A stretch of 64,000 nucleotides of DNA from Bacteroidota bacterium (GTDB lineage Bacteria; Bacteroidota; Ignavibacteria; Ignavibacteriales; Ignavibacteriaceae): the NCBI GenBank assembly GCA_021824145.1, contig JAKALM010000013.1, positions 1 to 64,000 of the forward strand, in the 5' to 3' direction. The translations under genes and the position numbers were made by a program. Each line of letters starts with the position of its first letter. Within the stretch, counting starts at the first letter, position 1. Shown piece by piece: positions 924 to 17,434 of this stretch. The notes below the pieces were generated by a model. It was not told the origin of the DNA. It was given only the letters and a program-made list of their open reading frames with translations, and made no database searches.

Positions 924-2219
924 ATGTGGACAATTTTGATAAAAGATTTAAGCGAGTTTGTAGGTAAAGAAGTCACACTAAAAGGGTGGCTTTATAATGA
1001 AAGATCAAGCGGAAAAGTTAAATTTTTAATCCTCAGAGATGGCACAGGGTTATTACAATGCGTTTACTTTAAAGGTAATGTATCTGAAGAAGTATTTGAA
1101 CTAGCCAGCCGGCTGGGACAAGAATCTTCAATTGAAGTTACAGGCAAAGTAAAAGTTGAACCACGTGCACCCGGCGGATATGAACTTGATGCTACTGGTC
1201 TAAAAGTAATTTCAGAATCCCACGATTATCCAATTACTCCCAAAGAACATGGAGTAGAATTTTTAATGGATCATCGTCATTTGTGGCTTCGCTCTAGTAA
1301 GCAAGTTGCAATTTTAAGAATTCGACATAGAATTGTAAAAGCTATTCGTGATTATTTTGACGGTAAAGGATTTACATTAATGGATCCGCCGATAATAACT
1401 CCGGCAGCTTGCGAGGGAACTTCCACATTATTTGAAACTGATTATTTTGATTTAGGTAAAGCATATTTAACACAATCGGGTCAATTGTATGCCGAAGCTG
1501 GAGCAATGGCTTTAGGGAAAGTATATACATTTGGGCCTACATTTAGAGCAGAGAAATCTAAAACAAGAAGGCATCTTACAGAATTCTGGATGGTTGAGCC
1601 TGAAGTTGCATTTGCTGAGTTAAATGATGATATGGATTTGGCAGAAGACTTTTTGGAATATATTGTTCAGACAGTTTTAAAAGATAAAGCAGAAGAATTA
1701 AAAGTTCTTGAACGAGATACAACAAAACTTCAGAATGTTAAAAAGCCTTTGCCAAGAATATCTTATGATGAAGCAGTTGAAATATTAAAGAAAAACGGAA
1801 TAGAGTTTGAGTGGGGCAATGACCTTGGCGGCACCGATGAAACAGTAGTTTCAAATCAATTTGATAAACCGGTTATGGTACATAGATATCCAGCTGAAGT
1901 AAAAGCATTTTATATGAAGCGAGATCCAAATAATCCCAAATTGGCATTAGCGGTAGATGTATTGGCACCGGAAGGTTACGGTGAAATTATAGGTGGAAGT
2001 CAAAGAGAAGATGATTTTGATCTTTTGTTAAGCAGAATCAAAGAACACAATTTACCTCAAGAAGCATTTGAGTGGTATCTTGATTTAAGACGATATGGTT
2101 CGGTTCCACATTCAGGCTTTGGTTTGGGATTAGAAAGAACAGTTGCTTGGATTTGCGGGCTTGACCATGTTAGAGAAACTATTCCGTTTGCAAGAATGAT
2201 TTATAGAAATACACCATAA
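924..2219 (+). CDS. asnS: Asparagine--tRNA ligase
   Basis: Class IIb aminoacyl-tRNA synthetase charging tRNA-Asn in the cytoplasm. Residues 1 to about 105 form the OB-fold anticodon-binding domain ([15 protein letters not shown]...ILRDGTG). The catalytic core follows, with motif 2 near residue 208 ([21 protein letters not shown]) and motif 3 near 400 ([13 protein letters not shown]), and the C-terminus [15 protein letters not shown]. The closing signature and the 431-residue length fit AsnRS better than AspRS, which is usually longer with an inserted domain. I saw no clear Shine-Dalgarno sequence before ATG 924; an in-frame TTG at 936 is an alternative start. A good promoter lies just upstream. 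Only 51 bases separate it from nuoJ with no terminator visible, so co-transcription with the complex I genes is likely. Confidence 0.93.
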
Positions 2220-2270: not shown

Positions 2271-2783
2271 ATGAATTTAGAAATTATACTGTTTATCGTT
2301 TTCGGAGGTATTGCTGCTGTATCATCTGTTTTGATGATTACGAGATCTAATCCGGTTATCAGCGCTTTATTTTTAGTATTAAATTTTGCATCACTTGCCG
2401 GATTATATCTTTTACTGCATGCACAATTTATAGCAGTTGCACAAGTAATTGTATATGCCGGCGCAATAATGGTTCTTTTTCTTTTTGTAATAATGCTTCT
2501 AAAGCCGGAACACGATAAATTATTCAGCACATACCCACAGATTAAAAAATTTGCAGTAGTAATTGGAGTATTGATTTTTATCCAACTCGTCTACATGATA
2601 TTTATTACCAAACCATCATCTGCAGAAAATCCTTCACTTCAAGCAAGCATAAAAGCTGGAACGATTGAGCAGATAGGATTAGAGTTGTATTCAAATTACA
2701 TATTACCATTTGAAGCCGCCGGTTACCTTTTGTTAGTGGCAACAATTGGCGCTTTAGTATTAGCTAAAAAGAAATTCGAATAA
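2271..2783 (+). CDS. nuoJ: NADH-quinone oxidoreductase subunit J
   Basis: Membrane-arm subunit of respiratory complex I. The 170-residue protein has five predicted helices and the NuoJ hallmark around residues 55-80, [27 protein letters not shown], a helix involved in coupling quinone reduction to ion pumping (cited here as its two halves [15 protein letters not shown] and [12 protein letters not shown]). It starts the run nuoJ-K-L-M-(antiporter)-(orphan)-nuoN. Unusually, asnS rather than nuoI/nuoH lies upstream, so the hydrophilic-arm genes are not adjacent here and must be elsewhere if the complex is complete. Only four bases separate it from nuoK. Confidence 0.93.
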
Positions 2784-2787
2784 AATT

Positions 2788-3093
2788 ATGAATATACCAA
2801 TAGAATATTACTTAGTACTTAGTGCTTTCATGTTTATTGTAGGAGTAACAGGAGTATTAACAAGAAGGAACGCAATAATTGTTTTTATGTCGATTGAATT
2901 AATGCTGAACTCTGCCAATTTAACATTGGTCGCTTTCTCATCATATTTAGGAAATTCAGTCGGGCAGCTTTTTGTATTTTTTGTAATGACTGTAGCTGCG
3001 GCCGAAGCTGCTGTTGGGCTTGCAATTATAATTGCAATTTTCCGTAACAAGCTTACAATGAACATTGACGAAATAAATATTCTTAAGTGGTAA
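2788..3093 (+). CDS. nuoK: NADH-quinone oxidoreductase subunit K
   Basis: A 101-residue, three-helix membrane subunit of complex I, the normal NuoK length and related to MrpC. The two intramembrane glutamates required for coupling in studied complexes are present: E37 in [12 protein letters not shown] and E73 in [11 protein letters not shown]. It follows nuoJ by four bases and precedes nuoL by 44 bases, so it is clearly one transcription unit with them. Confidence 0.95.
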
Positions 3094-3137
3094 ACAATAA
3101 ATATTCTTTTGATAAATAATCCATTGCATAAAGTTTT

Positions 3138-5075
3138 ATGATTCAATTAATGTATTTGACTGTTCTGCTACCTCTGCTCGGATTTTTGTTTAACGGACTG
3201 TTTGGAAGCAAGATCAAGAATGAAAAGGTTATCGGAATTATTGGAAGCAGTACAATTGGCATCTCTTTTCTTATTACTGTTGGAGCCTTTTTCCAAACTT
3301 TAGCTTTACCAGTTGAACAAAGACAAACTATAATTAATTTATTTTCGTGGTTAAATGTTGGCGGGTTAAATATCCATATCGCTTACCAGATTGATCAATT
3401 ATCACTTGTTATGGCTTTGGTAGTAACCGGAGTCGGATTTATCATTCATGTATATTCAATTGGTTACATGCATGGAGATAAAGGATTCTGGAGATTTTTC
3501 GCTTATTTAAATTTATTCATCTTTGCAATGATGAATTTAATTCTAAGCGATAACTTTGTACTTCTGTTTTTAGGCTGGGAAGGTGTTGGGCTTTGTTCGT
3601 ACTTACTGATTGGATTTTGGTATGACAGAAAATTTGAGAAGAGTACAACTTCGGATGCAGCTAAGAAGGCATTTATTGTAAATAGAATTGGAGACTTCGG
3701 ATTTCTTCTAGGAATGTTCCTAATCTATTTAACATTTGGAAGCTTAAACTTTGGAGATGTATTTTCTAGAGCAGCGTCAGTAAATATTCCAACTTCAACA
3801 TTTAATTTAATTGCATTATTCCTTTTTATAGGTGCTACCGGAAAATCTGCACAGATACCGCTTTATGTTTGGCTGCCAGATGCAATGGCTGGCCCAACTC
3901 CAGTTTCAGCATTGATCCATGCAGCTACGATGGTTACTGCCGGAGTTTATATGGTTGCTAGATGTTCTATCATCTTTGCATCTGCCCCGGAAATAATGAC
4001 TGTTGTTGCAATAATTGGTGTGCTTACAGCTTTCTTTGCGGCTACAATAGGCTTAGTTCAGAATGATATTAAAAAAGTTTTGGCATATTCAACTATAAGC
4101 CAATTAGGATACATGTTCCTTGCGATGGGAGTTGGTGCATTCTCGGCTGGAATCTTTCATGTAATGACACACGCTTTTTTCAAAGCTTTATTATTCCTTG
4201 GTGCCGGTTCAGTAATTCATGCAATGCATGATGAACAAAATATTCAGAACTACGGCGGACTAAAAAAATATATGCCTAAAACATTTTTAACATTTTTAGT
4301 TGCGGCGTTAGCAATTTCCGGAATACCGCCATTCTCAGGATTTTTCAGCAAAGATGATATTCTTTGGTTTTCATATGCAAATGGAAATTTTGTTTACTGG
4401 CTGATAGGTGCGATTACAGCACTTCTAACAGCATTCTATATGTTCCGTTTAGTTTATCTAACATTTTACGGGAAAGAAAGATTTGGACACGACAAGCATC
4501 CACATGAATCGCCAAGCGTAATGACGATTCCATTAATTGTACTGGGGATATTGTCAGCAATTGGCGGTTTTATAGGAATACCGGCAATATTCTCTGGCGA
4601 AGGCGGGAATAAATTTGAGAATTGGTTAGAGCCAATCTTCAGTAATGCTCAGGCAAAGTTAGTAATTTATGGAACGCACAGCCATTTTGAAGAAATCATT
4701 TTGATGTTAGTAACAGTGGTTGGCGCTATTGCAAGCATTTTTTATGCAAGATATTTATATCTTCAAAAAACAGAATTGCCTCTTCAATTCAGCAAGAAAT
4801 TCAAAGGAATATATACCGCACTTTGGAATAAATATTTTGTTGATGAAATCTATGATGCAGCTGTAGTTAATCCAATAAAACTGGGTTCCGAAAAAATTCT
4901 ATGGAATATAGCAGACAATAAAATAATAGATGGTTTAGTAAACGGGACAGCATCTGCAATTGGTTTTATGTCAAGTAAAATTAGAAAAGTTCAAACCGGC
5001 GTTGCGCAAATCTATGCAGTTGTAATGATACTTGGAATTGCTGCCGCCTTATTCTGGTTAATTTTAAGTTTATAA
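3138..5075 (+). CDS. nuoL: NADH-quinone oxidoreductase subunit L
   Basis: The distal Mrp-like antiporter subunit of complex I, 645 residues, with the expected 14-16 helices. The conserved ion-channel residues are visible: E148 in FLGWEGVGLCSYL and K236 in GATGKSAQIPLYVWLPDA, followed by the histidine-containing ALIHAATMVTAGVYM. The C-terminus, beyond residue 540, should supply the long lateral helix and the last anchoring helix. Start ATG 3138 places the first helix (YLTVLLPLLGFLF) at the very N-terminus, as usual. The gene lies 22 bases before nuoM in the same unit. Confidence 0.95.
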   Translation: MIQLMYLTVLLPLLGFLFNGLFGSKIKNEKVIGIIGSSTIGISFLITVGAFFQTLALPVEQRQTIINLFSWLNVGGLNIHIAYQIDQLSLVMALVVTGVGFIIHVYSIGYMHGDKGFWRFFAYLNLFIFAMMNLILSDNFVLLFLGWEGVGLCSYLLIGFWYDRKFEKSTTSDAAKKAFIVNRIGDFGFLLGMFLIYLTFGSLNFGDVFSRAASVNIPTSTFNLIALFLFIGATGKSAQIPLYVWLPDAMAGPTPVSALIHAATMVTAGVYMVARCSIIFASAPEIMTVVAIIGVLTAFFAATIGLVQNDIKKVLAYSTISQLGYMFLAMGVGAFSAGIFHVMTHAFFKALLFLGAGSVIHAMHDEQNIQNYGGLKKYMPKTFLTFLVAALAISGIPPFSGFFSKDDILWFSYANGNFVYWLIGAITALLTAFYMFRLVYLTFYGKERFGHDKHPHESPSVMTIPLIVLGILSAIGGFIGIPAIFSGEGGNKFENWLEPIFSNAQAKLVIYGTHSHFEEIILMLVTVVGAIASIFYARYLYLQKTELPLQFSKKFKGIYTALWNKYFVDEIYDAAVVNPIKLGSEKILWNIADNKIIDGLVNGTASAIGFMSSKIRKVQTGVAQIYAVVMILGIAAALFWLILSL

Positions 5076-5097: not shown

Positions 5098-6621
5098 ATG
5101 GAAAATAATCATTTGATATCATACTTACTTTTAACTCCGCTAATTGGAGGAATTCTTCTTCTTTTTATAAATAAGACTAAAGAGAATGCTATAAAATATT
5201 TTGGATTTGTAATTTCAATTATAGCTTTTATAATTTCTTTATTCTTATATACCGGTTACGATATAACCAAGAGCGGATTTCAATTAATTGATAAATTTAG
5301 CTGGATAGAAAATCTTCATATCAGCTACCATGTTGGAATAGACGGTATATCCCTTCTATTAGTTTTGCTAACAACATTCCTAACGCCATTAACATTGATG
5401 TCGAGTTGGAAAGCAATTACAAACCGAGTAAAAGAATTTACATTCTTTATGCTGATGCTCGAAGTAGGAATGATTGGAGTATTTGTTTCTCTAGATATGT
5501 TTTTGTTTTATGTATTTTGGGAAGCAATGTTAATCCCAATGTATTTTATAATCGGCATTTGGGGCGGCGACCAAAGAATTTATGCATCAGTAAAGTTTTT
5601 CCTTTATACAATGTTCGGCAGCTTGCTGATGCTAGTTTCAATTATATGGTTAGCTGTTTATGCATCAACTTCACTTGGCCATTTTTCAACTAATTTAATT
5701 GAACTTTACAGTGTTGGGCCAACTATTCAATCAACAATTCAGAATTGGATGTTTTTAGCATTTGCATTAAGCTTTGCAATTAAAGTCCCGCTTTTTCCGC
5801 TTCACACATGGCTTCCCGATGCACACGTACAGGCGCCAACAGCAGGCAGCGTAATTTTAGCCGGAGTTTTGCTTAAAATGGGAACTTACGGATTGTTAAG
5901 ATTTTGCTTGCCGTTATTTCCGCAAGCTTCAATTTACTTTGCACCTTACATTTCAGTGCTTGCTGTAGTTGGCATAATATACGGCGCTTTAGTTGCAATG
6001 GTTCAGAAAGATATGAAAAAACTTGTAGCATATTCTTCTGTTGCGCATTTAGGATTTGTTGTACTTGGAATTTTTGCACTTACACAGGAGTCAATTCAAG
6101 GCGCAGTAATTCAAATGATTAATCATGGATTATCAACTGGCGCTTTATTCCTTTTAGTTGGAGTTATATACGAAAGGACTCATACAAGAGAAATTTCCGA
6201 ATATGGCGGAATTGCTAAAGTGGTTCCTATATATGCTACATTTCTAATGATTGCTTCATTATCGTCGATAGGATTGCCTGGATTAAATGGATTTGTTGGC
6301 GAGTTTTTAATATTACTTGGTTCATTCAAATCGCCGGTATTAAATAACTGGTGGTTTACAATTTTTGCTGCAAGCGGTGTAATATTTGCGGCAGTTTATC
6401 TTCTTTGGATGTATCAAAGAGTGATGTTTGGTGAGGTTAAAAATCCAAAGATGAATAATTTAACAGACATGAATAAAAGAGAAATATTTATTCTAGCATC
6501 GATTTTTATATTTATAGTTTGGATAGGAATTTATCCAAGTACATTTTTAAATGTTTCAGCTAAATCAACTCAAAAAGTAATTGAACAAGTAATGCCTACC
6601 AAAACTTTAAGTTTGAAGTAG
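5098..6621 (+). CDS. nuoM: NADH-quinone oxidoreductase subunit M
   Basis: The middle antiporter-like subunit of complex I, 507 residues. Key residues are in place: E142 in FYVFWEAMLIPMYFIIGIWGG and K229 in FAIKVPLFPLHTWLPDAHVQAPT, then the broken-helix region VAYSSVAHLGFVVLG. Helices run through the whole length. It is followed after seven bases by the NhaD-like antiporter rather than by nuoN, which is the usual order in bacteria; the antiporter has its own start with a GGAGA Shine-Dalgarno at the nuoM stop. Confidence 0.95.
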   Translation: MENNHLISYLLLTPLIGGILLLFINKTKENAIKYFGFVISIIAFIISLFLYTGYDITKSGFQLIDKFSWIENLHISYHVGIDGISLLLVLLTTFLTPLTLMSSWKAITNRVKEFTFFMLMLEVGMIGVFVSLDMFLFYVFWEAMLIPMYFIIGIWGGDQRIYASVKFFLYTMFGSLLMLVSIIWLAVYASTSLGHFSTNLIELYSVGPTIQSTIQNWMFLAFALSFAIKVPLFPLHTWLPDAHVQAPTAGSVILAGVLLKMGTYGLLRFCLPLFPQASIYFAPYISVLAVVGIIYGALVAMVQKDMKKLVAYSSVAHLGFVVLGIFALTQESIQGAVIQMINHGLSTGALFLLVGVIYERTHTREISEYGGIAKVVPIYATFLMIASLSSIGLPGLNGFVGEFLILLGSFKSPVLNNWWFTIFAASGVIFAAVYLLWMYQRVMFGEVKNPKMNNLTDMNKREIFILASIFIFIVWIGIYPSTFLNVSAKSTQKVIEQVMPTKTLSLK

Positions 6622-6628
6622 GAGAGAA

Positions 6629-8071
6629 ATGACTATAAAAAAAACAAAAGATATTTTTTTATTTTCTTTATTTTTAATGTTCTTTCTCAATTTGAAAGCT
6701 GTGGCTGCACAGATTGTAAATCATTCAGCCGCAGATACTGCAATGAAAATTATGAATTCGGAAACCGCCGCTCACGTTTTACCATCGGCGTACATGGTAA
6801 TTCCATTTATATTGCTTTTGCTGATGATAGCGACCGGTCCTTTATTTTATAAACATTTTTGGGAAAATCATTATCCAAAAGTTTCATTATTATTAAGTGT
6901 TGTAGTAATTCTATACTACATTATTTTTCTAAATAATACTAAAAGCCTTCTGCACACACTTACAGAATATATTTCCTTTATTGCACTTCTAAGTTCATTG
7001 TTCGTTGCATCGGGAGGAATATTAATAAAAGTAGATAAGAAATCAACTCCGCTTGTAAATGTGATTTTCTTGTTGTTTGGCGCGGTAATTTCAAATATTG
7101 TAGGAACAACGGGCGCATCCATGCTGTTAATTCGTCCATTCATTAAGATGAATAAGAACAGAATAAGACCTTACCACATTATCTTTTTTATATTTATTGT
7201 AAGTAATATAGGAGGAGCATTAACACCGATTGGTGATCCACCATTGTTTTTAGGATTCTTAAGCGGCGTACCATTTTTCTGGGTTATAGATAATGTATGG
7301 TATATTTGGATTCCAACATTGGTTCTGGTATTATTAGCTTTTTATTTATTTGACTTGAATAATAAAAAAGACAGCCCAACGAAAGTTGAATACAGCGGTA
7401 AAATTCATTTTAAGGGATATAAAAATTTAATTTATTTATTAATAATTGTGATAGCTGTATTTATCGATCCAGTAGTTATTCCATGGGTGCCAAGTTTATA
7501 TCCACTTCCATTTGGAATAAGAGAAATAATAATGTTTGCTGTGGTAATAGTTTCTTATAAGACTGCTGATAAAGAAATACTAAAAGATAACGAATTTGAT
7601 TTTGAGCCGATAAAAGAAGTTGCTTATTTATTCATTGGTATTTTTGCAACAATGATACCAGCATTACAGCTAATTGCTTATGAAGCAAAAGAATTTGGCG
7701 ATAAATTAAGTGCTGGAGTTTTTTATTGGGCTACAGGAATTTTATCAGCTATTCTAGATAATACTCCCACTTACATGAATTTTTTGAGTGCGGCAATGGG
7801 CAAATATGGATTGGATGTTACAGTTAAATCTAATGTCCAAAATTTTGTTTTAGTTGATGATATTTATTTAAAAGCTATTTCAGTTGCAGCGGTATTTTTT
7901 GGTTCGTTAACTTATATTGGCAATGGGCCAAACTTTATGGTAAAATCTATAAGCGAAAGAGCTGGAATTGAAATGCCGAGCTTCTTCACTTATATTGTTA
8001 AATACTCGGTTATAATACTGTTACCAATATTTACCATAATCTGGCTTCTTTTCTTTTATGGAAAGGGTTAA
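6629..8071 (+). CDS. NhaD/CitMHS-type Na+/H+ antiporter-like membrane protein inside the nuo cluster
   Basis: A 480-residue ion-transporter-superfamily protein with about 12 helices and an N-terminal hydrophobic segment ending near KAVAAQ, which may be a signal peptide. Diagnostic stretches are GTTGASMLLIRPFIKMN (near 170), SNIGGALTPIGDPPLFLGFL (near 192) and the second repeat TGILSAILDNTPTYMN (near 370) with YIGNGPNFM. These fit the NhaD/CitMHS group, in which several members exchange Na+ for H+. ATG 6629 is preceded by GGAGA. The gene sits between nuoM and nuoN in a tight run (gaps of 7 and 3 bases), which suggests that its ion exchange is matched to complex I activity. Substrate and direction are inferred, and a carboxylate transporter of the same superfamily is possible. 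Confidence 0.75.
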   Translation: MTIKKTKDIFLFSLFLMFFLNLKAVAAQIVNHSAADTAMKIMNSETAAHVLPSAYMVIPFILLLLMIATGPLFYKHFWENHYPKVSLLLSVVVILYYIIFLNNTKSLLHTLTEYISFIALLSSLFVASGGILIKVDKKSTPLVNVIFLLFGAVISNIVGTTGASMLLIRPFIKMNKNRIRPYHIIFFIFIVSNIGGALTPIGDPPLFLGFLSGVPFFWVIDNVWYIWIPTLVLVLLAFYLFDLNNKKDSPTKVEYSGKIHFKGYKNLIYLLIIVIAVFIDPVVIPWVPSLYPLPFGIREIIMFAVVIVSYKTADKEILKDNEFDFEPIKEVAYLFIGIFATMIPALQLIAYEAKEFGDKLSAGVFYWATGILSAILDNTPTYMNFLSAAMGKYGLDVTVKSNVQNFVLVDDIYLKAISVAAVFFGSLTYIGNGPNFMVKSISERAGIEMPSFFTYIVKYSVIILLPIFTIIWLLFFYGKG

Positions 8072-8074
8072 GAG

Positions 8075-8440
8075 ATGATGACAATTGAAAATACAATAAA
8101 AAACAAGTTAAAAGGTCTTTATTACGGCAATAGAATGATTCTGCCTTTTAACTGTCATTTGCTGAAGGTAATCATTGAAGACGATATAATAATGGACTTT
8201 TCACCAAGTTCGAAATCAATATACGTCCATGAAGAAGAAAATTTTACCGAGATATATTTTAAACTGTTTAAGAATATAAAAGATGCAGTTTCAAAATATG
8301 AATCAATAAAATTAATTGCAGTAGAGAAAGATAAAGATATATTTAATTTTGATAATCACTATAAATTAGCAGTTCATATAGAAGATGAACATAAATTAAC
8401 AATTGATAAAACAGACGAAGACATTTTATTTATAGAATAA
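8075..8440 (+). CDS. Conserved-position orphan protein between antiporter and nuoN, unknown
   Basis: I do not recognise this 121-residue protein. It is soluble-looking, with no membrane helix, and is rich in charged residues with an acidic, alternating C-terminus (HIEDEHKLTIDKTDEDILFIE). The N-terminus KNKLKGLYYGNRMILPFNCHLLKVIIEDDIIMDFSP suggests a mixed alpha/beta fold (given as motifs GNRMILPFNCHLL and IIEDDIIMDFS). It lies three bases after the antiporter and four bases before nuoN, so it is translated from the same message. Its position suggests a regulator or assembly partner of the antiporter or of complex I; that is inference from context only. Confidence 0.7.
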   Translation: MMTIENTIKNKLKGLYYGNRMILPFNCHLLKVIIEDDIIMDFSPSSKSIYVHEEENFTEIYFKLFKNIKDAVSKYESIKLIAVEKDKDIFNFDNHYKLAVHIEDEHKLTIDKTDEDILFIE

Positions 8441-8444
8441 TATT

Positions 8445-9875
8445 ATGCTGAACAACTTTCAAGAATTTTTCAATTTACTTCCCCTAATTATAATTGGCGC
8501 GGGGATTTTAGTCTCACTTTGCATAGAAATGTACTCAAAGAAAAGTGAACAAATTTTACCATGGTTTTCAACCATAGTTTTTCTTGCTTCCGGATTTCAT
8601 GCACTAGCTTATGTGAACTCGGTTTCTGTAATAATGCAGAATATGTTTGCAGTAGGCGGAACAGTTAATATTTTCTTTTTCATATTTACTTTTGGTGCCG
8701 CAATTGTGTCTCTGCTTTCAATTGATTATTTAAAAAAATACGGAACGTATTACGGTGAATTTTATCTGCTTTTGCAGTCATCCGTATTAGGAATGATGCT
8801 AATGGCAGGAGCGAAAGATTTATTTGTAATCTTTCTTGGGCTTGAAGTTATGTCCGTAAGTTTTTATGCTTTAGCAGGAATGAATAGAAAAAAATTGAAA
8901 GCCAATGAAGCATCACTCAAATATTTCTTACTTGGCGCGTTTGCAACCGGATTTATTGTATACGGAATTGCATTAATTTATGGAACAGCTCAAACAACAT
9001 CGATTGATTTAATTGCATCAAGATTTGCACAGTTACAGCATAATCTTTTATTTGTTGCCGGAATACTTTTATTCTTAATTGGATTTTCATTTAAGATTGC
9101 TGCATTTCCATTCCATATGTGGGTGCCAGATGTTTATGAAGGTTCGGCGTCAACGGTTGCTGGATTATTTTCTACCGGCGGTAAAGCTGCGGCATTCAGT
9201 GCAATTATTGTAACACTTGGAGTTTTATTTAACGGATCTATTCAAAACATCTTTGAGCCTTATTTAGCAGTAATTGCAGTATTATCGATGGTATTTGGAA
9301 GTGTTGTTGCAATTGCACAAACAAATATAAAAAGGATGTTAGCTTATTCATCAATTGCGCATGCCGGTTATATGATTATAGGATTGGCATCAGGGAATTA
9401 CGACGGCATTGCAGGAATAATATATTATTTAGTCGCATATACTTTTATGAATCTAGGAGCTTTCGGTATTGTTTCAATAATCGAAGGTAAAGAAGAAGCT
9501 AATCTTGAATTAAAATCGTATTCAGGATTAGCGTCTAGGAATCCTATACTTGCAGCTTTTTTAGCAATATTTATGTTTTCGCTTGCTGGTATACCACCTT
9601 TTGCTGGATTCTTTGGAAAATATTATGTATTCATTTCGGCAATAAAAGCTCATTTAACCTGGTTGGCTATTGTTGGAGTTTTATCAAGCGTAATAAGTGT
9701 TTATTTCTATTTAAGAGTTGTTGTATTAATGTACTTTAAAGATTCCGAAACAGAATTTTCAATAGAACGAAGCAGTACAGGCTTAGCTGCGGTGGTTATA
9801 TCGGTTCTGTTGGTAATTATAATAGGAGTTGCGCCAGGAACTGTTATCGGAATGATTACTTCATTCTTGCATTAA
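8445..9875 (+). CDS. nuoN: NADH-quinone oxidoreductase subunit N
   Basis: The third antiporter-like subunit of the complex I membrane arm, 476 residues. The conserved pair is E134 in FLGLEVMSVSFYALAG and K217 in FSFKIAAFPFHMWVPDVYEG, followed by the second lysine region TGGKAAAFSAI and the characteristic MLAYSSIAHAGYMIIG. It ends the nuo run; the next gene, nnr, begins after 103 bases of AT-rich sequence in which I found neither a clear terminator nor a clean promoter. Confidence 0.95.
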   Translation: MLNNFQEFFNLLPLIIIGAGILVSLCIEMYSKKSEQILPWFSTIVFLASGFHALAYVNSVSVIMQNMFAVGGTVNIFFFIFTFGAAIVSLLSIDYLKKYGTYYGEFYLLLQSSVLGMMLMAGAKDLFVIFLGLEVMSVSFYALAGMNRKKLKANEASLKYFLLGAFATGFIVYGIALIYGTAQTTSIDLIASRFAQLQHNLLFVAGILLFLIGFSFKIAAFPFHMWVPDVYEGSASTVAGLFSTGGKAAAFSAIIVTLGVLFNGSIQNIFEPYLAVIAVLSMVFGSVVAIAQTNIKRMLAYSSIAHAGYMIIGLASGNYDGIAGIIYYLVAYTFMNLGAFGIVSIIEGKEEANLELKSYSGLASRNPILAAFLAIFMFSLAGIPPFAGFFGKYYVFISAIKAHLTWLAIVGVLSSVISVYFYLRVVVLMYFKDSETEFSIERSSTGLAAVVISVLLVIIIGVAPGTVIGMITSFLH

Positions 9876-9978: not shown

Positions 9979-11553
9979 ATGATACCTCTATTTTCTACAA
10001 ATCAAGTAAGAGAAGTTGACAATTATGCCATTCATAATCTTGGTATTCCAGGATTAGTTTTGATGGAAAATGCTGCAACGCAGATATTTAACAAAACAAT
10101 TGAGAATGCAAACCATCTAATTAAAAAAAACCGTATTGGTGTTATATGTGGAAAGGGAAATAACGGCGGAGACGGATTTGCAGCGGCGAGGCAATTTGCA
10201 AATCGCGGCTTTCATGTAAAAGTTATTTACTTAGGTAATGAAAGTGAAATGTCGCCGGATTGTTTATCAAATTTTAAAACGCTGTTAAATTTAGGTAAAG
10301 ATAACAAGAACATTTTAATTAAGAAATTTGGATCAATTAAAGATTTAAATTTTATTAATGACTGCGATTTGATTTTAGATGCTTTGCTCGGCAGCGGATC
10401 TCAGGGAATACTAAGAGAACCTTATAATTCAATTATAAATTCCCTTAACAAGATAAAATCTTTTAAAGTTGCTGTTGATATTCCTACTGGGCTTAATTCA
10501 GATTCTGGCTATGCAGAAAATTGTTTTAATGCCGACTTAACTGTAACTCTTGGTGAATTAAAACGAGGCTTATTTATTGAAGACGGTTATGCTAATTGCG
10601 GAATAATAGAAAAAGGAGATATCGGAATTGGATTTTCTTTTTTCGACAAATTAAAAACCTCAGAATATTTAATAGAGCCGGAAGATGTATTTTATAACTT
10701 GCCATTTAAGAAAAAGGACATTCACAAATATTCGTCGGGAAAAGTATTAACTATTGCGGGCTCGGGCTCATTTCCAGGAGCTGCTAGAATGACAGCAAAA
10801 TCAGCTCTTAAAGTTGGGGCAGGGGCATCGATATTATGCTATCCAAAATCAGTAAGAAAATTAATATTTAATAAAGCTTCTGAAGTTGTTGTTAACTCGT
10901 ATGATGATGATGGTAAAGAATACTTATCTAAAAAAAATATTAAAGAATTTGAAAATAAATTAGAATGGGCTGATGCTGTTGCTATTGGCCCGGGACTTGG
11001 AAGAGAACCTGAAACTCAGGATGCAGTAATTGAAATATTAAAAAAGAAAAAATGCAAACGAATGGTAATTGATGCTGATGGTATTTTTGCATTGAACAAT
11101 GACCGTTATAAAAATATTAATATTGAAGGTGTTGTTCTTACTCCGCATCATGGTGAATTTGCCAACTTAATTGGAATTGAAACTTTGGAATTAAAAAAGA
11201 ATGTTTTGTTTTACGGGAAAAAATTTGTCGAAGATACAGGCGCTTATTTAATTCTCAAAGGAGCTCCAACAATAATATTTACGCCAAATGGAGATTCTTT
11301 AATAAATACAGCAGGAAATCCTGGCATGGCAAAATTCGGAACCGGTGATGTACTAACCGGAACTATTGTTGGTTTGTTAGCCCAATTGAAAGATACCGAA
11401 AAAGCAGTAGTAACCGGAGTTTATATTCACAGCTTAGCAGCAGATTTATTGTTGAATGATTTTACAGATTATGGATACACTGCTGAAAATATAATTAATA
11501 AATTGCCCGAAGCTATAAAATTTTTAAGAAAATCTTTTAATTCAGAGATTTAA
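9979..11553 (+). CDS. nnr: Bifunctional NAD(P)HX epimerase/dehydratase
   Basis: Repairs hydrated NADH and NADPH: an N-terminal YjeF epimerase domain interconverts the R and S forms, and a C-terminal ADP- or ATP-dependent dehydratase restores the cofactor. At 524 residues it has both domains. The N-domain shows ENAATQIF and CGKGNNGGDGFAAARQF (near residue 53). The C-domain, from about 250, shows TIAGSGSFPGAARMTAKSALK, VIDADGIFAL, LTPHHGEFA and the phosphate-binding GNPGMAKFGTGDVLTG. Cytoplasmic. The VanZ-like gene follows after only two bases, so they are probably co-transcribed. Its place after complex I is reasonable for an enzyme that guards the NADH pool, but the link is only positional. 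Confidence 0.93.
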   Translation: MIPLFSTNQVREVDNYAIHNLGIPGLVLMENAATQIFNKTIENANHLIKKNRIGVICGKGNNGGDGFAAARQFANRGFHVKVIYLGNESEMSPDCLSNFKTLLNLGKDNKNILIKKFGSIKDLNFINDCDLILDALLGSGSQGILREPYNSIINSLNKIKSFKVAVDIPTGLNSDSGYAENCFNADLTVTLGELKRGLFIEDGYANCGIIEKGDIGIGFSFFDKLKTSEYLIEPEDVFYNLPFKKKDIHKYSSGKVLTIAGSGSFPGAARMTAKSALKVGAGASILCYPKSVRKLIFNKASEVVVNSYDDDGKEYLSKKNIKEFENKLEWADAVAIGPGLGREPETQDAVIEILKKKKCKRMVIDADGIFALNNDRYKNINIEGVVLTPHHGEFANLIGIETLELKKNVLFYGKKFVEDTGAYLILKGAPTIIFTPNGDSLINTAGNPGMAKFGTGDVLTGTIVGLLAQLKDTEKAVVTGVYIHSLAADLLLNDFTDYGYTAENIINKLPEAIKFLRKSFNSEI

Positions 11554-11555
11554 TT

Positions 11556-11960
11556 TTGATAGAATATCTTGAAAAAAATAGAATAAAATTTGTTTATACA
11601 CCATTAATAATTTATTGGTTAATACTTTTAATAGCTACTTCAATACCTGGCAATGATATGCCAGATATTCATATGAATGATAAGTTTGAGCATTTTTTGG
11701 GTTATGGATTATTAACAATCCTCATAAATTTTTCACTTCTCGTGCAATCGAAAAACAAGCTATTAAAGACAAAAGCCTATCTTGCGTCAATAATAATAGT
11801 TTCAATTTATGGAGCTCTTGATGAACTTCATCAAATTTTTGTGCCGGGGCGTGATTGCGATTTTTATGATTGGATTACTGATTTTTCTGCTGCATGTTTT
11901 GGTATTGTCATGGTTTATTCACTAGTTAAATTTGTTAGAATCAAAGTAAGAAACTCATAA
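11556..11960 (+). CDS. VanZ-like membrane protein
   Basis: A 134-residue protein with four predicted helices and the VanZ-family pattern: NDKFEHFLGYGLLTI in the first half and the acidic/aromatic motif GALDELHQIFVPGRDCDFYDWITDFSAA in the second (as the parts DELHQIFVPGRD and DFYDWITDFSA). VanZ-like proteins are envelope proteins; the founding member raises teicoplanin resistance, but most chromosomal members have no assigned role. The start is TTG 11556, two bases after the nnr stop; no ATG precedes the first helix. The DUF218 gene follows 21 bases later. Confidence 0.8.
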   Translation: MIEYLEKNRIKFVYTPLIIYWLILLIATSIPGNDMPDIHMNDKFEHFLGYGLLTILINFSLLVQSKNKLLKTKAYLASIIIVSIYGALDELHQIFVPGRDCDFYDWITDFSAACFGIVMVYSLVKFVRIKVRNS

Positions 11961-11981
11961 CTTCTTTTATAGTAAAATCTA

Positions 11982-13010
11982 ATGCCTTCAAAAAGTAATA
12001 AAAATAGAGGAATAATCTCTTCACTTGTAATATTGATTTTATTGCTTGATCAATTATTCTTATTTTATATAAAATACGAAAACCAAGGATTAGAACTCTC
12101 GAATTTTAGCTTTTTATATCTTGGGAATATCCTAAATATTATATTTACTTTAGCTGCAATATTAGGTGTTATTTTTTATTCAATAAAAGTAAAAAAGGAT
12201 TTTAAAGCAGTTTTTTTAATTTCTTTTTCGATAACATTATCGATATTATTATTGATATCATTTATCAGTACAAAAATTTCTTTACCTTTGCCAAATGTAT
12301 ATTTTCTCGATCATCCACTAAAAAAAATTGCAGTTGGTTTTCTTTTCTCTGTATATCAGTATTTTCAATTTTTATTTATTGGAATTGTTTGGTTTCAACT
12401 TTTAGGCGGGAAAGAATTGATTGTTCTAAGAGCAATTGTAAATTCGGCTGCATTAGTAATGATTCTTTTATTCTTTGCTTTTTTATTCATTAACTTGAAA
12501 AAGAATGACAATAAAAAAATTCCTCCTAAAAAACATTCAATAAATGTTGCCGTAGTACTTGGAGCTGCCGTATGGCCTCACAATGCACCAAGTCCTAGCT
12601 TAGCAGCACGAGCTGATAAAGCTGTAGAACTTTTACGAGAAGGGATTGTTAATAAAATCCAATTAACGGGAAGCAATGCACCAGGAGAATTAAGTGAAGC
12701 AGAAGTTGCATACAATTATATCCGTTCAGAAAATGTTGATACTTCCCAAATTTGGGTTGAAAACAAAACCGTTTCAACAGCAGAACAAGTACAATATATT
12801 AAAGAACATATCTTAACTAAGAAAAATATAGGCAATATTTTTATTGTATCAGATTCTTATCATTTAGCACGTGTAAAAGAAATGTGCAGATTTTATAAAA
12901 TTAAAGTTGGATTAGCAACTTCTGATTTAAAATTAAACTTTCAGCACAATCTATATTACAAAATGAAAGAAAGTATTGGTTTACTTGTGTTTTGGTTCTT
13001 TGGATTATAA
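11982..13010 (+). CDS. DUF218 (SanA/ElyC/YdcF) family membrane protein
   Basis: This 342-residue protein has five hydrophobic segments in residues 1-170, then a DUF218 domain: INVAVVLGAAVWPHNAPSPSLAARADKAVEL (seen as VVLGAAVWP and LAARADKAVELL), KIQLTGSNAPGELSEAEVAYNY and KTVSTAEQV, with the late histidine motif IVSDSYHLARV. Members such as SanA and ElyC act at the cell envelope, and ElyC affects peptidoglycan precursor lipid metabolism in E. coli. The enzyme activity of this protein is unknown. The nusB promoter appears to overlap its last codons. Confidence 0.8.
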   Translation: MPSKSNKNRGIISSLVILILLLDQLFLFYIKYENQGLELSNFSFLYLGNILNIIFTLAAILGVIFYSIKVKKDFKAVFLISFSITLSILLLISFISTKISLPLPNVYFLDHPLKKIAVGFLFSVYQYFQFLFIGIVWFQLLGGKELIVLRAIVNSAALVMILLFFAFLFINLKKNDNKKIPPKKHSINVAVVLGAAVWPHNAPSPSLAARADKAVELLREGIVNKIQLTGSNAPGELSEAEVAYNYIRSENVDTSQIWVENKTVSTAEQVQYIKEHILTKKNIGNIFIVSDSYHLARVKEMCRFYKIKVGLATSDLKLNFQHNLYYKMKESIGLLVFWFFGL

Positions 13011-13030
13011 CAAGTTCGAAGATATTTTTG
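12999..13030 (+). promoter_or_regulatory. Bacteroidetes-type promoter for nusB
   Basis: TTTG at 12999-13002 and TATTTTTG at 13023-13030 are separated by exactly 20 bases, matching TTTG-N19..21-TAnnTTTG. The upstream element lies in the last codons of the DUF218 gene and the nusB start codon is 37 bases downstream of the -7 element. This suggests nusB and the exporter gene after it are transcribed separately from the genes on their left. Confidence 0.55.
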
Positions 13031-13067
13031 TATTCACTTAAAATTGATTTTTACAGGTTAACTTAAA

Positions 13068-13550
13068 ATGTCTCACGTATTTAAAAGAAGAATTGTAAGA
13101 GAAAAAGCGCTACAAATTTTATATGCATACACAATGAATAAGGAATCGCTAGAAGCCTTAATTGGTGCAATGCTTGCTGATGTAGAAGATAAAGCAGATA
13201 AGGATTTTGCTGATGAATTAGTTCATAAAGTTTTAGCGCATAAAGATGAACTAGATAAAGAAATAAAGAAAAGAGTTGATAATTGGGAGATGAATAGAAT
13301 TGCTCTAATTGATAAAATTTTACTGCGGATGGGAATTTGTGAACTTTTATACTTCCAAGAAATTCCTCCTAAAGTATCAATTAATGAAGCCATTGAAATA
13401 GCAAAAATATACAGTACTGCTGGCAGCGGAAAATTTATAAATGGGATTCTTGATGCTGTTTTAACTGAATTAAAAGATTCTGGTAATTTGAAAAAGACAG
13501 GACGTGGACTTATTGAAGAAAGCATTTCTAAAACTTCTTCAAAGAAATAA
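13068..13550 (+). CDS. nusB: Transcription antitermination factor NusB
   Basis: A 160-residue all-helical RNA-binding protein that, with NusE (S10), loads on boxA RNA and supports rRNA operon antitermination. The N-terminus RRIVREKALQILYAY and the core NRIALIDKILLRMGICELLYF, then PPKVSINEAIEIAKIYSTAGSGKFINGILDAV, are the standard NusB pattern (key parts RREKALQ-like start, INEAIEIAK and KFINGILDAV). Its C-terminal tail is some 15-20 residues longer than in E. coli. An upstream promoter is visible and the MFS gene follows three bases later. Confidence 0.93.
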   Translation: MSHVFKRRIVREKALQILYAYTMNKESLEALIGAMLADVEDKADKDFADELVHKVLAHKDELDKEIKKRVDNWEMNRIALIDKILLRMGICELLYFQEIPPKVSINEAIEIAKIYSTAGSGKFINGILDAVLTELKDSGNLKKTGRGLIEESISKTSSKK

Positions 13551-13553
13551 GAG

Positions 13554-14813
13554 ATGAAATCTAAAAGCAAAATCTTTTTCTGGACGCTTTTTGATTTTGC
13601 TAATACTGCATTTTCTGTTATCATTGTTACCGTAATTTATTCAAAGTACTTTTCAAATTATGTAGCTGGCGGGAAGAACTGGCTTTGGGGATTAAGCGTA
13701 AGTATATCGATGATCATTGCTGCATTATTAAGCCCTCCACTTGGTGCAATTGCAGATGTTTCACGCAATAGAAAAAGATTTCTATTAATCTTCACTTTAA
13801 TTTCTGTTATATGTACAGCTTTAATGTTTTATGTACAAAAAGGCGATGTGCTTTTGGGGATTGTACTTTTCATTCTTGCCAACATTGGATTTGAAGCCGG
13901 TTTAGTTTTTTATGATGCATTCCTTCCGAACCTAACCGAGAAAAAAAATTTTGGAAGAGTTTCTGGCTACGGCTTTGCAATGGGATATATTGGAGCTCTA
14001 GCCGTGCTATTGATAATTATGGTATTACTTCCAGCAGAGACTTCGCCAGATTATATATTTTATGTAAGATTATCATTCGTTGTTGCGGCTGCATTTTTTC
14101 TTTTCTTTTCAATTCCTCTTTTTCTCTTTGTAAGTGAACCAAAACTAAGCTTGCAATTAAAAAAATCTGCAATAAGAATAGGATTACAGAAAAGCGGAAG
14201 AACTTTAAGAGCTCTTTTTGTTCACAAAGAATATCCATCAATCTCACGTTTTCTTTTAGCATTTTTTCTTTATAACGATGCAATAATTACAATTATAGCT
14301 TTCGCCTCTATTTTTGCATCAAAAATTTTAATGATGACTGATGAACAAATAATTTATTTCTTTGTAATAGTTCAGAGCACTGCAGTTGCAGGATCATTTA
14401 TCTTTGGAATTATTTCTGATCATATTGGCCCGAAGAAAACAATTACGATAACTCTAGTAATTTGGCTGTTTGTTGTAGTTGGCGCTTTCTTAGTTCAAAA
14501 TGTATTTCAATTTTATCTTGTAGGATTATCTGCAGGATTGTCAATCGGTTCTTCACAATCGTGCAGTAGAAGCTTAATGGCATTGCTTACACCTCATGAA
14601 AGGGAAGCAGAGTTTTTTGGATTTTATGATGGTTTATTTGGGAAATCATCAGCAGTAGTGGGACCTTTATTTTATGGTATCATTGCAGATCTTTTTAATC
14701 AGAGATTTGCTGCCCTTGCTATCGGAATATTTTTTTTAGTTGGACTAATAATTCTCCAAAGAGTAGAAGTTCCGAAGTATAAAAAAGAAGAAACAGCCGC
14801 AGAGATTATTTAA
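13554..14813 (+). CDS. MFS transporter, UMF1 (Atg22-like) family
   Basis: A 419-residue, 12-helix major facilitator. The opening KIFFWTLFDFANTAFSVIIVTVIYSKYF (seen as WTLFDFANTAFS) and the loop DVSRNRKRFLL are typical of the UMF1/Atg22-like group, together with SQSCSRSLMALLTPHEREAEFFGFYDGLFGKSSAVVGPL (seen as SRSLMALLTP and EFFGFYDGLFGKSSA). In yeast Atg22 exports amino acids from the vacuole; bacterial substrates are not established, so export of amino acids or another small metabolite is only a guess. It is three bases downstream of nusB. Its stop codon overlaps the stop of the phosphatase on the other strand. Confidence 0.8.
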   Translation: MKSKSKIFFWTLFDFANTAFSVIIVTVIYSKYFSNYVAGGKNWLWGLSVSISMIIAALLSPPLGAIADVSRNRKRFLLIFTLISVICTALMFYVQKGDVLLGIVLFILANIGFEAGLVFYDAFLPNLTEKKNFGRVSGYGFAMGYIGALAVLLIIMVLLPAETSPDYIFYVRLSFVVAAAFFLFFSIPLFLFVSEPKLSLQLKKSAIRIGLQKSGRTLRALFVHKEYPSISRFLLAFFLYNDAIITIIAFASIFASKILMMTDEQIIYFFVIVQSTAVAGSFIFGIISDHIGPKKTITITLVIWLFVVVGAFLVQNVFQFYLVGLSAGLSIGSSQSCSRSLMALLTPHEREAEFFGFYDGLFGKSSAVVGPLFYGIIADLFNQRFAALAIGIFFLVGLIILQRVEVPKYKKEETAAEII

Positions 14814-15895
14814 ACTGCTTTCATAACAATCATAGTTAAGTCATCATGTGCGGGCGATGAATCAGTAAAGATTGAAATATTTTTCAAGATTGAATCTTGA
14901 ATTTCTTTAGCAGATCTGCCTGCGTTTTTAGTAATAACATCCATAAATCTTTCTTCGCCGTATTCCATAAAATAATTATTCATTGCTTCAACAACACCGT
15001 CGGTATAGAAAATTAATATATCGCCTGGCTGCGGTTGAATTTCAATCTCCTCAAGTGAAGTTTCAAAAATTGAATTTTGGCTTAAGCCAATTCCCATTCC
15101 GCGCGGAATAATGTTTTGGCATTTTTGTTCGGCTTTACTATAAATAATCAATGGCATATGTCCGGCGCGGGAAAGTAAAAGAGTTCCCTTGGAATTTAGG
15201 CAAGCTATACTAACAGTAAAGAAAGATCCTTTTTTTAAGATCCTAGTAAGATTTTTATTCAATAGAACAAGAATATCTTTGGGTGAATCATTATGAATTA
15301 TCAGATAGCGTAAAATTGCCTGCACTTGAACCATATGCAATGCAGCTGCCATGCCTTTGCCAGATATATCTCCTATTACTATGTATGTTTTATCCGGGGA
15401 TGATTCATGGACAATAAAATCGTAATAATCACCTCCAACCTCACGAGCAGCTTCTGAATAGCAACTAATTTCAAAGTATTCATTCTTCGGAGGTTCCTTT
15501 GGCATTAAGCTAGATTGGATTTCACTTGCAACTGCAAGCTCGTCCTTTGCAATCAATTTATCTGAAAGTTCGAATGCCAAAATTATATTTACAAGAATGA
15601 ATCCGAACCAAATATATTGAGATTGATTTGACATGAAACCAAATACAAAAAGTACTAACGCTATTGAATAAACTAGTCTTCGAACAGGTGTTAGCTGAAG
15701 TAAAAAAGCTACGAACAAGCTGCGTAAAAATCTTAGAATTCCTCGAGGCGATCTGCGCATCTCTTCGGGCTCTTTCATCTTTTTTACGTAGAAATTGTAT
15801 AGCTCAGGCAAATCTCTTTTAACCAGCTTTTCAATTTCCTTATAACTTAAATCGCTAGTATAAAAATCATAAAGACGATTAAGGCGCTTGAACAT
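14810..15895 (-). CDS. SpoIIE-type serine phosphatase with short membrane region
   Basis: A 361-residue protein. Residues about 65-115 hold two membrane helices, and from about 120 to the end lies a PP2C/SpoIIE catalytic domain: LAVASEIQSSLMPKEPP, AREVGGDYYDFI, VIGDISGKGMAAALHM, SRAGHMPLIIY, ILIFYTDGVVEAMN and PAHDDLTMIV. The aspartates in GGDYYD, GDISGKG, YTDG and HDDLT are the usual metal ligands. SpoIIE-type phosphatases often act on anti-anti-sigma factors, but no such gene is nearby, so the substrate is unknown. It converges on the MFS gene with a four-base overlap of the two reading frames. Confidence 0.88.
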   Translation of the reverse strand: MFKRLNRLYDFYTSDLSYKEIEKLVKRDLPELYNFYVKKMKEPEEMRRSPRGILRFLRSLFVAFLLQLTPVRRLVYSIALVLFVFGFMSNQSQYIWFGFILVNIILAFELSDKLIAKDELAVASEIQSSLMPKEPPKNEYFEISCYSEAAREVGGDYYDFIVHESSPDKTYIVIGDISGKGMAAALHMVQVQAILRYLIIHNDSPKDILVLLNKNLTRILKKGSFFTVSIACLNSKGTLLLSRAGHMPLIIYSKAEQKCQNIIPRGMGIGLSQNSIFETSLEEIEIQPQPGDILIFYTDGVVEAMNNYFMEYGEERFMDVITKNAGRSAKEIQDSILKNISIFTDSSPAHDDLTMIVMKAV

Positions 15896-16007
15896 TGCTT
15901 GAATATTTCCTTATTATTTTAAATTTCTTTACAAATGTAATTAGATATTTGATTTTGGAAACTTGATACTTGAAATTTGATAAATTAAAAAAACTCTTCA
16001 CTTTCTT

Positions 16008-17165
16008 TTAAACTCGGCATAATTTTTCTGCGGCTTCAATAAGAACTTCATCCCGCTTTGCAAAACAGATTCTTATTAATTTCCTTTTATTATCAGAAGA
16101 ATAAAACGGAGATAACGGAATAACTGCAACTCCAATTTCTTTTGTTAAAAATTCAGAGAACTCATAATCATTTTTATCTGTAATACCGGAATAATCAAGA
16201 AGCTGAAAATAAGTTCCTCTAGCTTTGTTTAACTTAAAACGGGAATCCTTCAAAGCATTAATTATTAAATCTCGTTTCTTCTGATAAAAAAATCCAAGAC
16301 TTAAATAATGATTTTCATTTTTCATAAAATCTGCATATGCATATTGAATAGGAGTATTGACCGCAAAAACCATAAACTGATGAATCTTTCTGAATTCCGA
16401 CATTAAATTTTCTGGTGCTGCGCAATAACCAATTTTCCAGCCTGTTGTATGATAAGTTTTTCCAAATGAAGAAACGATGAATGATCTTCTAGCAAGTTCA
16501 CCGGAGCGCGATATACTAATGTGCCTATTTCCGTCGAACACAATATGCTCATAAACTTCATCACTAATAATTAAAATATTTGTATCCTTAGTAATTTCTT
16601 CCAAATTTTTAAGATCTGCTAAATTTATTACACTGCCGGTCGGATTGTGTGGTGAATTGACAATTATCAATTTGGTTTTATTAGTAATAGAATCTTTGCA
16701 TCTATCCCAATCAATAGAAAAATCTTTTTCACTTAAAGGAATTGGAATTGGTTTGCCTCCATTAGCCATAATTGCTGGAAGGTATGTATCAAAAGCGGGC
16801 TCAAATATAATTACTTCATCACCTGAATTTATTACTGCAGATATAATGGTATAAAGCGCTTGAGTTGCACCTGCAGTAATATTTATTTCAGTTTCGGGAT
16901 TATAATTATGTCCGTACAGCTTTTCTATTTTAGCGGAAATTCTTTCTCGAAGCAGAGGCAAACCTGGCATAGGCGCATATTGATTACGACCTTCGTTAAT
17001 ATAATGCGATACTAATTTTTTTAAGTCATCGGGACAATCAAAATCGGGGAAACCTTGGGAGAGATTTATTGCATTATAATCTGCTGCCATTTTGGACATA
17101 ATAGTAAAAATAGTTGTACCAATATTCGGTAATTTGGAATTGAGTTTTATTTGGGGTCTTTCCAT
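16008..17165 (-). CDS. PLP-dependent aminotransferase, methionine/kynurenine aminotransferase-like
   Basis: A class I/II aminotransferase of 385 residues. Seen: the substrate-loop INLSQGFPDFDCPDDL near residue 40, YAPMPGLPLLRE, GATQALYTII, IVNSPHNPTGSV with the conserved Asn, ISDEVYEHIVF with Asp and Tyr, and the PLP-lysine motif SSFGKTYHTTGWKIGY (Lys near residue 235). SQGFPDF, YxPxxGxxxLR and the GKTYxxTGWKxGY form match E. coli YbdL, a methionine-preferring enzyme, and eukaryotic kynurenine aminotransferases. It is therefore probably a methionine or broad glutamine/methionine transaminase rather than AspC. It is monocistronic, with 269 bases of AT-rich sequence upstream before the Sel1 gene in which I found nothing definite. 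Confidence 0.85.
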   Translation of the reverse strand: MERPQIKLNSKLPNIGTTIFTIMSKMAADYNAINLSQGFPDFDCPDDLKKLVSHYINEGRNQYAPMPGLPLLRERISAKIEKLYGHNYNPETEINITAGATQALYTIISAVINSGDEVIIFEPAFDTYLPAIMANGGKPIPIPLSEKDFSIDWDRCKDSITNKTKLIIVNSPHNPTGSVINLADLKNLEEITKDTNILIISDEVYEHIVFDGNRHISISRSGELARRSFIVSSFGKTYHTTGWKIGYCAAPENLMSEFRKIHQFMVFAVNTPIQYAYADFMKNENHYLSLGFFYQKKRDLIINALKDSRFKLNKARGTYFQLLDYSGITDKNDYEFSEFLTKEIGVAVIPLSPFYSSDNKRKLIRICFAKRDEVLIEAAEKLCRV

Positions 17166-17434
17166 AATGCTCTTAACAAAATGTTATAATAAAATTAAAG
17201 ATACTTCATTTAATATATACAATTTGTTTAAATCTATTACATTGTAGAAATGTTAAATTGTTTTATTTTGAATTGTATGAATAAACTAACGAATTGTTAC
17301 ATGAAATTCTTCCAGTATTATTAACTGAAAAAAGTTTCTGCTTTTAGCAAAATAGAATTTATAAATTAAATAAAGTGTTAAAATAATTTGTATAAAAAAG
17401 TAAATAATAAAAGCAAAATTAATTTTAGAATACT

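Follow-up and report, generated by a model that had tools for sequence, protein, structure and literature searches.

A putative NhaE-type Na+/H+ antiporter gene and a small orphan gene, probably forming one unit, within a complex I gene run of an Ignavibacteriaceae bacterium

An antiporter gene located between nuoM and nuoN is already known from R. marinus. The title of a 2005 paper by Melo places an 'nhaD' gene of R. marinus among the complex I genes, together with pcd. According to a review (PMC9408914), the R. marinus antiporter made E. coli resistant to Na+, not to Li+, the presumed Li+-binding residues of NhaD are missing from it, and a family of its own, NhaE, was proposed. The same review describes SxxxDN motifs at both hairpins of HhNhaD1, S162/D166/N167 (first) and S401/D405/N406 (second); Asp and Asn are both essential at the first site, while the proposed second Na+ site requires its Asp but stays partly active in Ser and Asn mutants (PMC9408914). 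Among open-licence papers, no literature was found on an insertion between nuoM and nuoN in Ignavibacteria or on the orphan gene described below, which is new here.

The window, which is the whole stretch of DNA analyzed, comprises 64,000 nt (contig JAKALM010000013.1, positions 1-64,000, forward strand, assembly GCA_021824145.1). The gene run of interest lies on the + strand. Its left border is an asnS-like class II aminoacyl-tRNA synthetase gene (924..2219; PF00152, 7.3e-72) directly 5' of nuoJ, a border common to relatives. It is followed by nuoJ, nuoK and nuoL (2271..5075; PF00499, PF00420 and PF00361, with TIGR01974 for nuoL), nuoM (5098..6621; TIGR01972, 5.3e-195), an antiporter-like gene of 480 codons, here called X (6629..8071), an orphan open frame of 121 codons without Pfam or NCBIfam match, here called o (8075..8440), nuoN (8445..9875; TIGR01770, 4.8e-125) and, as right border, yjeF for bifunctional NAD(P)HX repair (9979..11553; PF01256 and PF03853). 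The gaps nuoM/X, X/o and o/nuoN are 7, 3 and 4 bases; this order and spacing had been given by the first-pass annotation and proved exact when compared with the open frames and the TIGR01972 and TIGR01770 matches. X is single-copy in the genome. No nuoH was found within the window, and the genome's three nuoH-family matches lie on contigs 10, 1 and 35. The yjeF-type repair gene is located 3' of nuoN here and in many relatives, beside the main NADH-oxidizing enzyme. The genome has a second complex I set elsewhere (G000 contig 1, about 10752-18405), whose NuoM is 47% identical to that of the window and whose NuoL frame is longer, at 711 aa. A set resembling it is what stays where the window-type set is lost.

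The X protein matched PF16980 (CitMHS_2) at 3.9e-142 and, more weakly, PF03600 at 1.1e-12. These were the sole Pfam matches at E 0.001; PF00361 (Proton_antipo_M), found in the antiporter-like complex I subunits NuoL/M/N, was absent, which distinguishes X from them. No NCBIfam model matched X and no solved structure was found by sequence search, both at E up to 10. The AlphaFold model of X (30 sequences) had a pLDDT of 85.9. Foldseek gave 17 matches at E ≤0.001, with ArsB on top and VcINDY, Pho90 and NaS1 included; VIA-align 2 aligned the model to ArsB over 388 residues (Z 30.7, rmsd 3.9) and to VcINDY with Z about 21-22, sequence identity to X being about 9-14% in the top IT rows. The predicted fold is that of the IT superfamily, to which NhaD (TC 2.A.62) belongs and which X would share with ArsB and the VcINDY/NaDC carriers. 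By eye, the N-terminus (residues ~1-27) resembles a signal peptide. A shorter PF16980 paralogue of ~432 aa occurs at loci L102, L104, L105, L107-L109, L111, L113, L115, L116, L124, L126, L127, L137 and L149; its signal-like N-terminus is mostly missing, it has D at the position of E113 and S at that of N156, and nuo genes never adjoin it at these loci.

In an alignment of X homologues (n=166), S373, D377, N378 and D203 are invariant (166/166), as are G159, T160, T161 and G162 (166/166), and position 156 holds N in 151 sequences and S in the other 15. These are column counts; the SxxxDN regular expression, which covered only positions past residue 330, matched 158/166. The second hairpin of X carries the SxxxDN motif (S373, D377, N378), as does that of NhaD. 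By motif, the first-hairpin D166/N167 of HhNhaD1 correspond to G159/T160 in X (166/166).

Transport of an anion or carboxylate (citrate, arsenite or another oxyanion) by X, instead of cation antiport, is suggested by the Pfam name 'Putative citrate transport', by the weak PF03600 match and by the solved folds, ArsB ranking first and divalent-anion carriers next; as the arsenite carrier ArsB is the closest solved fold to the model, another substrate for X is possible. However, the hairpin of X differs from those of ArsB and VcINDY/NaDC by its acidic SxxxDN, whose invariant acidic residue is placed like that of HhNhaD1 at its second Na+ site, and the Rhodothermaceae-group members of this protein family are probable NhaE, the reported Na+/H+ antiporter. 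Anion transport is considered improbable. X is probably a NhaE-type Na+/H+ antiporter, Na+/H+ exchange being ascribed to it by analogy because it is related to the R. marinus protein. The antiporter character assigned on first inspection agrees with the predicted IT fold, PF16980 and the SxxxDN motif, which make the gene NhaE-like. The first-pass annotation had also named alignment to a citrate or dicarboxylate carrier as the outcome that would speak against it; this applies to the Pfam name only, and the PF16980 proteins of the Rhodothermaceae group are found in the antiporter arrangement reported for R. marinus.

The Rhodothermaceae group comprises nine genomes, the family of the Rhodothermaceae record L051. 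X scored over the PF16980 cut-off in eight of the nine and is located beside nuoM in 8/8; nuoN follows in six, and in two the contig ends before it. Between X and nuoN the small gene was that of pterin-4a-carbinolamine dehydratase (PCD; PF01329) in 6/6 ORFs from six genomes, and a profile made from these ORFs detected PCD after X in seven genomes of the group. These X proteins, 48-57% identical to that of the window, are presumably orthologues of R. marinus NhaE (TC 2.A.111), judging by gene order and family. The likeness to the window lies in PF16980, in the slot after nuoM and in a small soluble gene 3' of the antiporter gene, whereas the small gene itself is PCD in the one group and the unrelated o in the other. 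A PCD gene after the antiporter gene, and before nuoN where nuoN was seen, was observed at L162-L165, L167-L169, L171-L173 and L189-L195.

The small soluble gene of the Rhodothermaceae slot raises the question whether o is a diverged PCD. This candidate was ruled out: 0/18 o sequences matched PF01329 at E up to 10, and hhalign gave a probability of 0.2%. No sequence relation between PCD and o was found, and the o model is mostly beta, whereas PCD has an alpha/beta fold.

Of the residues of o, 16 are basic and 23 acidic; no stretch of 19 residues is strongly hydrophobic, and o is predicted to be a small soluble beta protein. At E 0.001 neither Pfam nor NCBIfam gave a match; 18 relatives searched against Pfam at E up to 10 gave scattered matches only (best 0.008), and a profile search of solved structures gave none at E up to 10. 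The model of o (18 sequences, pLDDT 88.5) is mainly beta with two short helices. Compared with the PDB by Foldseek it had no confident match (best E 0.28), and VIA-align 2 reached a middling best Z of 5.9 with beta-sandwich rows, many of Ig type; the function of o is not readable from these structure matches. Comparison of o with three relatives gave pS of 0.73-0.93, near saturation, and pN of 0.14-0.18, and because pS is near saturation while pN is low, these codon comparisons mark o as a real gene under purifying selection.

The window's family was surveyed in 61 genomes, of which 40 contain o, 57 PF16980 and 61 Proton_antipo_M. The loci were classified from 60 X loci plus the window's own. 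The order nuoM–X–o–nuoN is present in 39 genomes, X being duplicated in tandem in one of the 39; X followed directly by nuoN, without o, in four; a contig end after nuoM–X in two; X solely elsewhere in 11; and no X locus was read in five (no match in four, fragments only in one). The arrangement is not due to chance because it recurs in 39/61 family genomes. The insertion, which the first-pass annotation had proposed to survey in relatives, is accordingly not unique to the window genome; uniqueness had been named there as speaking against the proposed reading. Among the 16 family genomes in which no embedded X was seen, 12 loci were read (the rest being G002, G036, G039 and G047), and nuoN stands directly after nuoM in 12/12. 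The tandem locus, L103 of genome G024, has two X genes between nuoM and o. At L065 (3425-5104), an embedded locus without o, similarity to nuoN starts about 1.4 kb past X.

Beyond the family, o was found in 39 of 294 genomes of a class-wide draw and in 65 of 395 of a phylum-wide draw. Two related families supplied 22 more loci (L209-L230); o follows X at every one, 12 lying inside and 10 outside nuo. Within the window's family 40/40 o-bearing genomes have PF16980; overall it is present in 81/81 o-bearing genomes where both were sought. The reverse does not hold. A profile search for o in nine Rhodothermaceae-group and five other X genomes found none (0/14), four nuo-embedded outliers lack it, and in one set of 80 X loci it is missing at 63. 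No o-like protein was detected among 114 genes flanking X at 58 stand-alone loci; their largest cluster holds 24 proteins, of which the six named are encoded 5' of X, are 408-415 aa long and resemble dehydrogenases as judged by eye. At the stand-alone loci L020, L023, L024, L028, L029 and L031 the 408-415-aa gene 5' of X resembles, by eye, amino acid dehydrogenases. X can work without o, which is then an add-on, because o is missing in the Rhodothermaceae group, in four family genomes and at 63/80 X loci.

The phylum-wide draw also gave o matches in 41 genomes of one distant family, probably Chlorobiaceae (E 6e-13 to 9e-7), and PF16980 is present in 41/41 of these. The o proteins of this Chlorobiaceae-like family are 24-29% identical to that of the window; G14, L23, P24, F25, F90 and F119 are nevertheless invariant, and E84, D88 and I89 nearly so. 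In 34 of the 41 genomes o lies directly 3' of X, within 61 bases in 33 and at 325 bases in one; in the remaining seven it is located away from X. Eight loci were read, of which five show X–o without adjoining nuo match and three show o without X. A DUF389 gene adjoins o in at least two of the three X-less loci. DUF389 membrane protein genes beside o were seen at L201 (6667-8013) and L203 (8881-10203) by Pfam, and at L204 (8766-10106) by similarity of the start of the gene. About 1.5 kb 5' of the X-less o in L203, a NuoL-like frame (5932-7392) has 33% identity, over part of its length, to the NuoL of the window.

The NuoM of the window served as query against thirteen Ignavibacteria-type genomes in which X–o lies outside nuo, and 13/13 had no close match; the best NuoM was 44-47% identical and is that of the second set. 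Completeness is 96-100% for nine of the thirteen, with no figure for the other four. In three embedded-X genomes of other families the same search detected NuoM at 70-76% as well. Two Chlorobiaceae-like genomes, with a best NuoM of 43 and 45%, were left out of the loss count, their group being distant.

In these Ignavibacteria-type genomes the locus reads asnS–X–o–yjeF. The asnS gene is found just 5' of X in 13 of the 14 loci queried, two of which come from one genome, and the fourteenth locus starts 147 bases before X; yjeF is located 3' in all but one. Three states are found at the same place: asnS–nuoJKLMN–yjeF, asnS–nuoJKLM–X–o–nuoN–yjeF and asnS–X–o–yjeF. A concatenated tree of asnS, X and yjeF was calculated from 26 loci (28 holding all three genes, less two duplicates). 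A single clade of the 11 nuo-less loci was rejected in this tree (AU p 0.0076), and because of this rejection the loss of nuo around X–o probably happened more than once. The fewest state changes were 3 on the quick tree and 2 on the careful tree; several inner branches are weak. In the tree of X proteins the separate Ignavibacteria X–o loci nest among the embedded ones, except L228; this tree left out L082-L101, L162-L173 and L196-L200 (short or duplicate loci), proteins shorter than 380 aa and copies that do not differ in their C-terminal 300 residues. Judging by the gap on both sides and by the tree, the nuo-less state appears to be a loss and not the original state.

These loci bear on the proposal of the first-pass annotation that X acts in or with complex I. 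In that reading both genes are complex I accessories, X sitting on the membrane arm and enabling Na+/H+ exchange and o serving as an assembly factor; it draws on the gaps of a few bases within the nuo run and on the occurrence of nuo-embedded X in several lineages. However, X–o is kept in 13/13 genomes where the host set is missing, 5/5 Chlorobiaceae-like X–o loci read have no adjoining nuo genes, and the complex I set stands without X, nuoM passing directly to nuoN, at 12/12 loci read. With X also occurring outside nuo, a role of X in complex I was not borne out, and o behaves as a partner of X and not as an assembly factor; the accessory reading is judged very improbable.

It is somewhat less improbable, though still unlikely, that o is unrelated to X in function and that their adjacency reflects operon inertia. 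Occurrences of one gene apart from the other fit this view, namely X in nuo without o in four family genomes, o away from X in 7/41 Chlorobiaceae-like genomes and X without o in the Rhodothermaceae group. Three observations, however, speak against inertia: two distant groups with different surroundings both have X beside o, the two genes stay adjacent where the flanking nuoJKLM and nuoN are gone, and PF16980 is found in every one of the 81 o-bearing genomes. Because of this adjacency with different neighbors, because the pair persists where the genes on both sides are gone, and because X is present wherever o was found and both were sought, o is a probable partner of X and not of complex I. 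The conserved unit is, on this comparative evidence, probably antiporter plus o and not antiporter plus complex I.

The best explanation, with a probability of roughly 0.6, is that X is a NhaE-type antiporter and o its dedicated cytoplasmic partner, the pair forming one unit separate from complex I. It has to be set against this that the first-site aspartate of NhaD is, by motif, a Gly in X, and that in most nuo-embedded genomes all the genes stay together, which would be expected of a functional tie as well. In the mechanism proposed, X would move like an elevator and thereby swap Na+ from the cytoplasm for protons from outside, with D377, the aspartate of the SxxxDN hairpin, and D203 as the candidate Na+/H+ site. 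The o protein would be a soluble cytoplasmic protein that binds X and is co-transcribed with it, most likely a regulatory or stabilizing subunit; regulation or stabilization of X is the best reading because X can do without o. The position of the pair inside the nuo run would lead to co-expression with the proton pump, so that Na+/H+ exchange may be tied to the pump via co-transcription, with X–o neither a part of complex I nor in need of being one. A bolder reading, tentative and at somewhat less than even odds, is that o is the first member of a new family of proteins acting as cytoplasmic subunits of antiporters of the IT superfamily; X–o would then be a two-component Na+/H+ exchanger in which o senses or gates, a pairing that outlasts the loss of complex I and is common to Ignavibacteria-type and Chlorobiaceae-like bacteria.

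R. marinus long ago raised the question whether an antiporter whose gene lies inside the complex I operon also participates in the complex. The loci described here are natural deletions, with nuo plus X–o, nuo alone and X–o alone at the same place, and speak for the antiporter being a machine of its own. The small unstudied partner protein o is now open to a specific and cheap test. Co-transcription with nuo, if real, would link the expression of a Na+/H+ exchanger to that of a proton pump.
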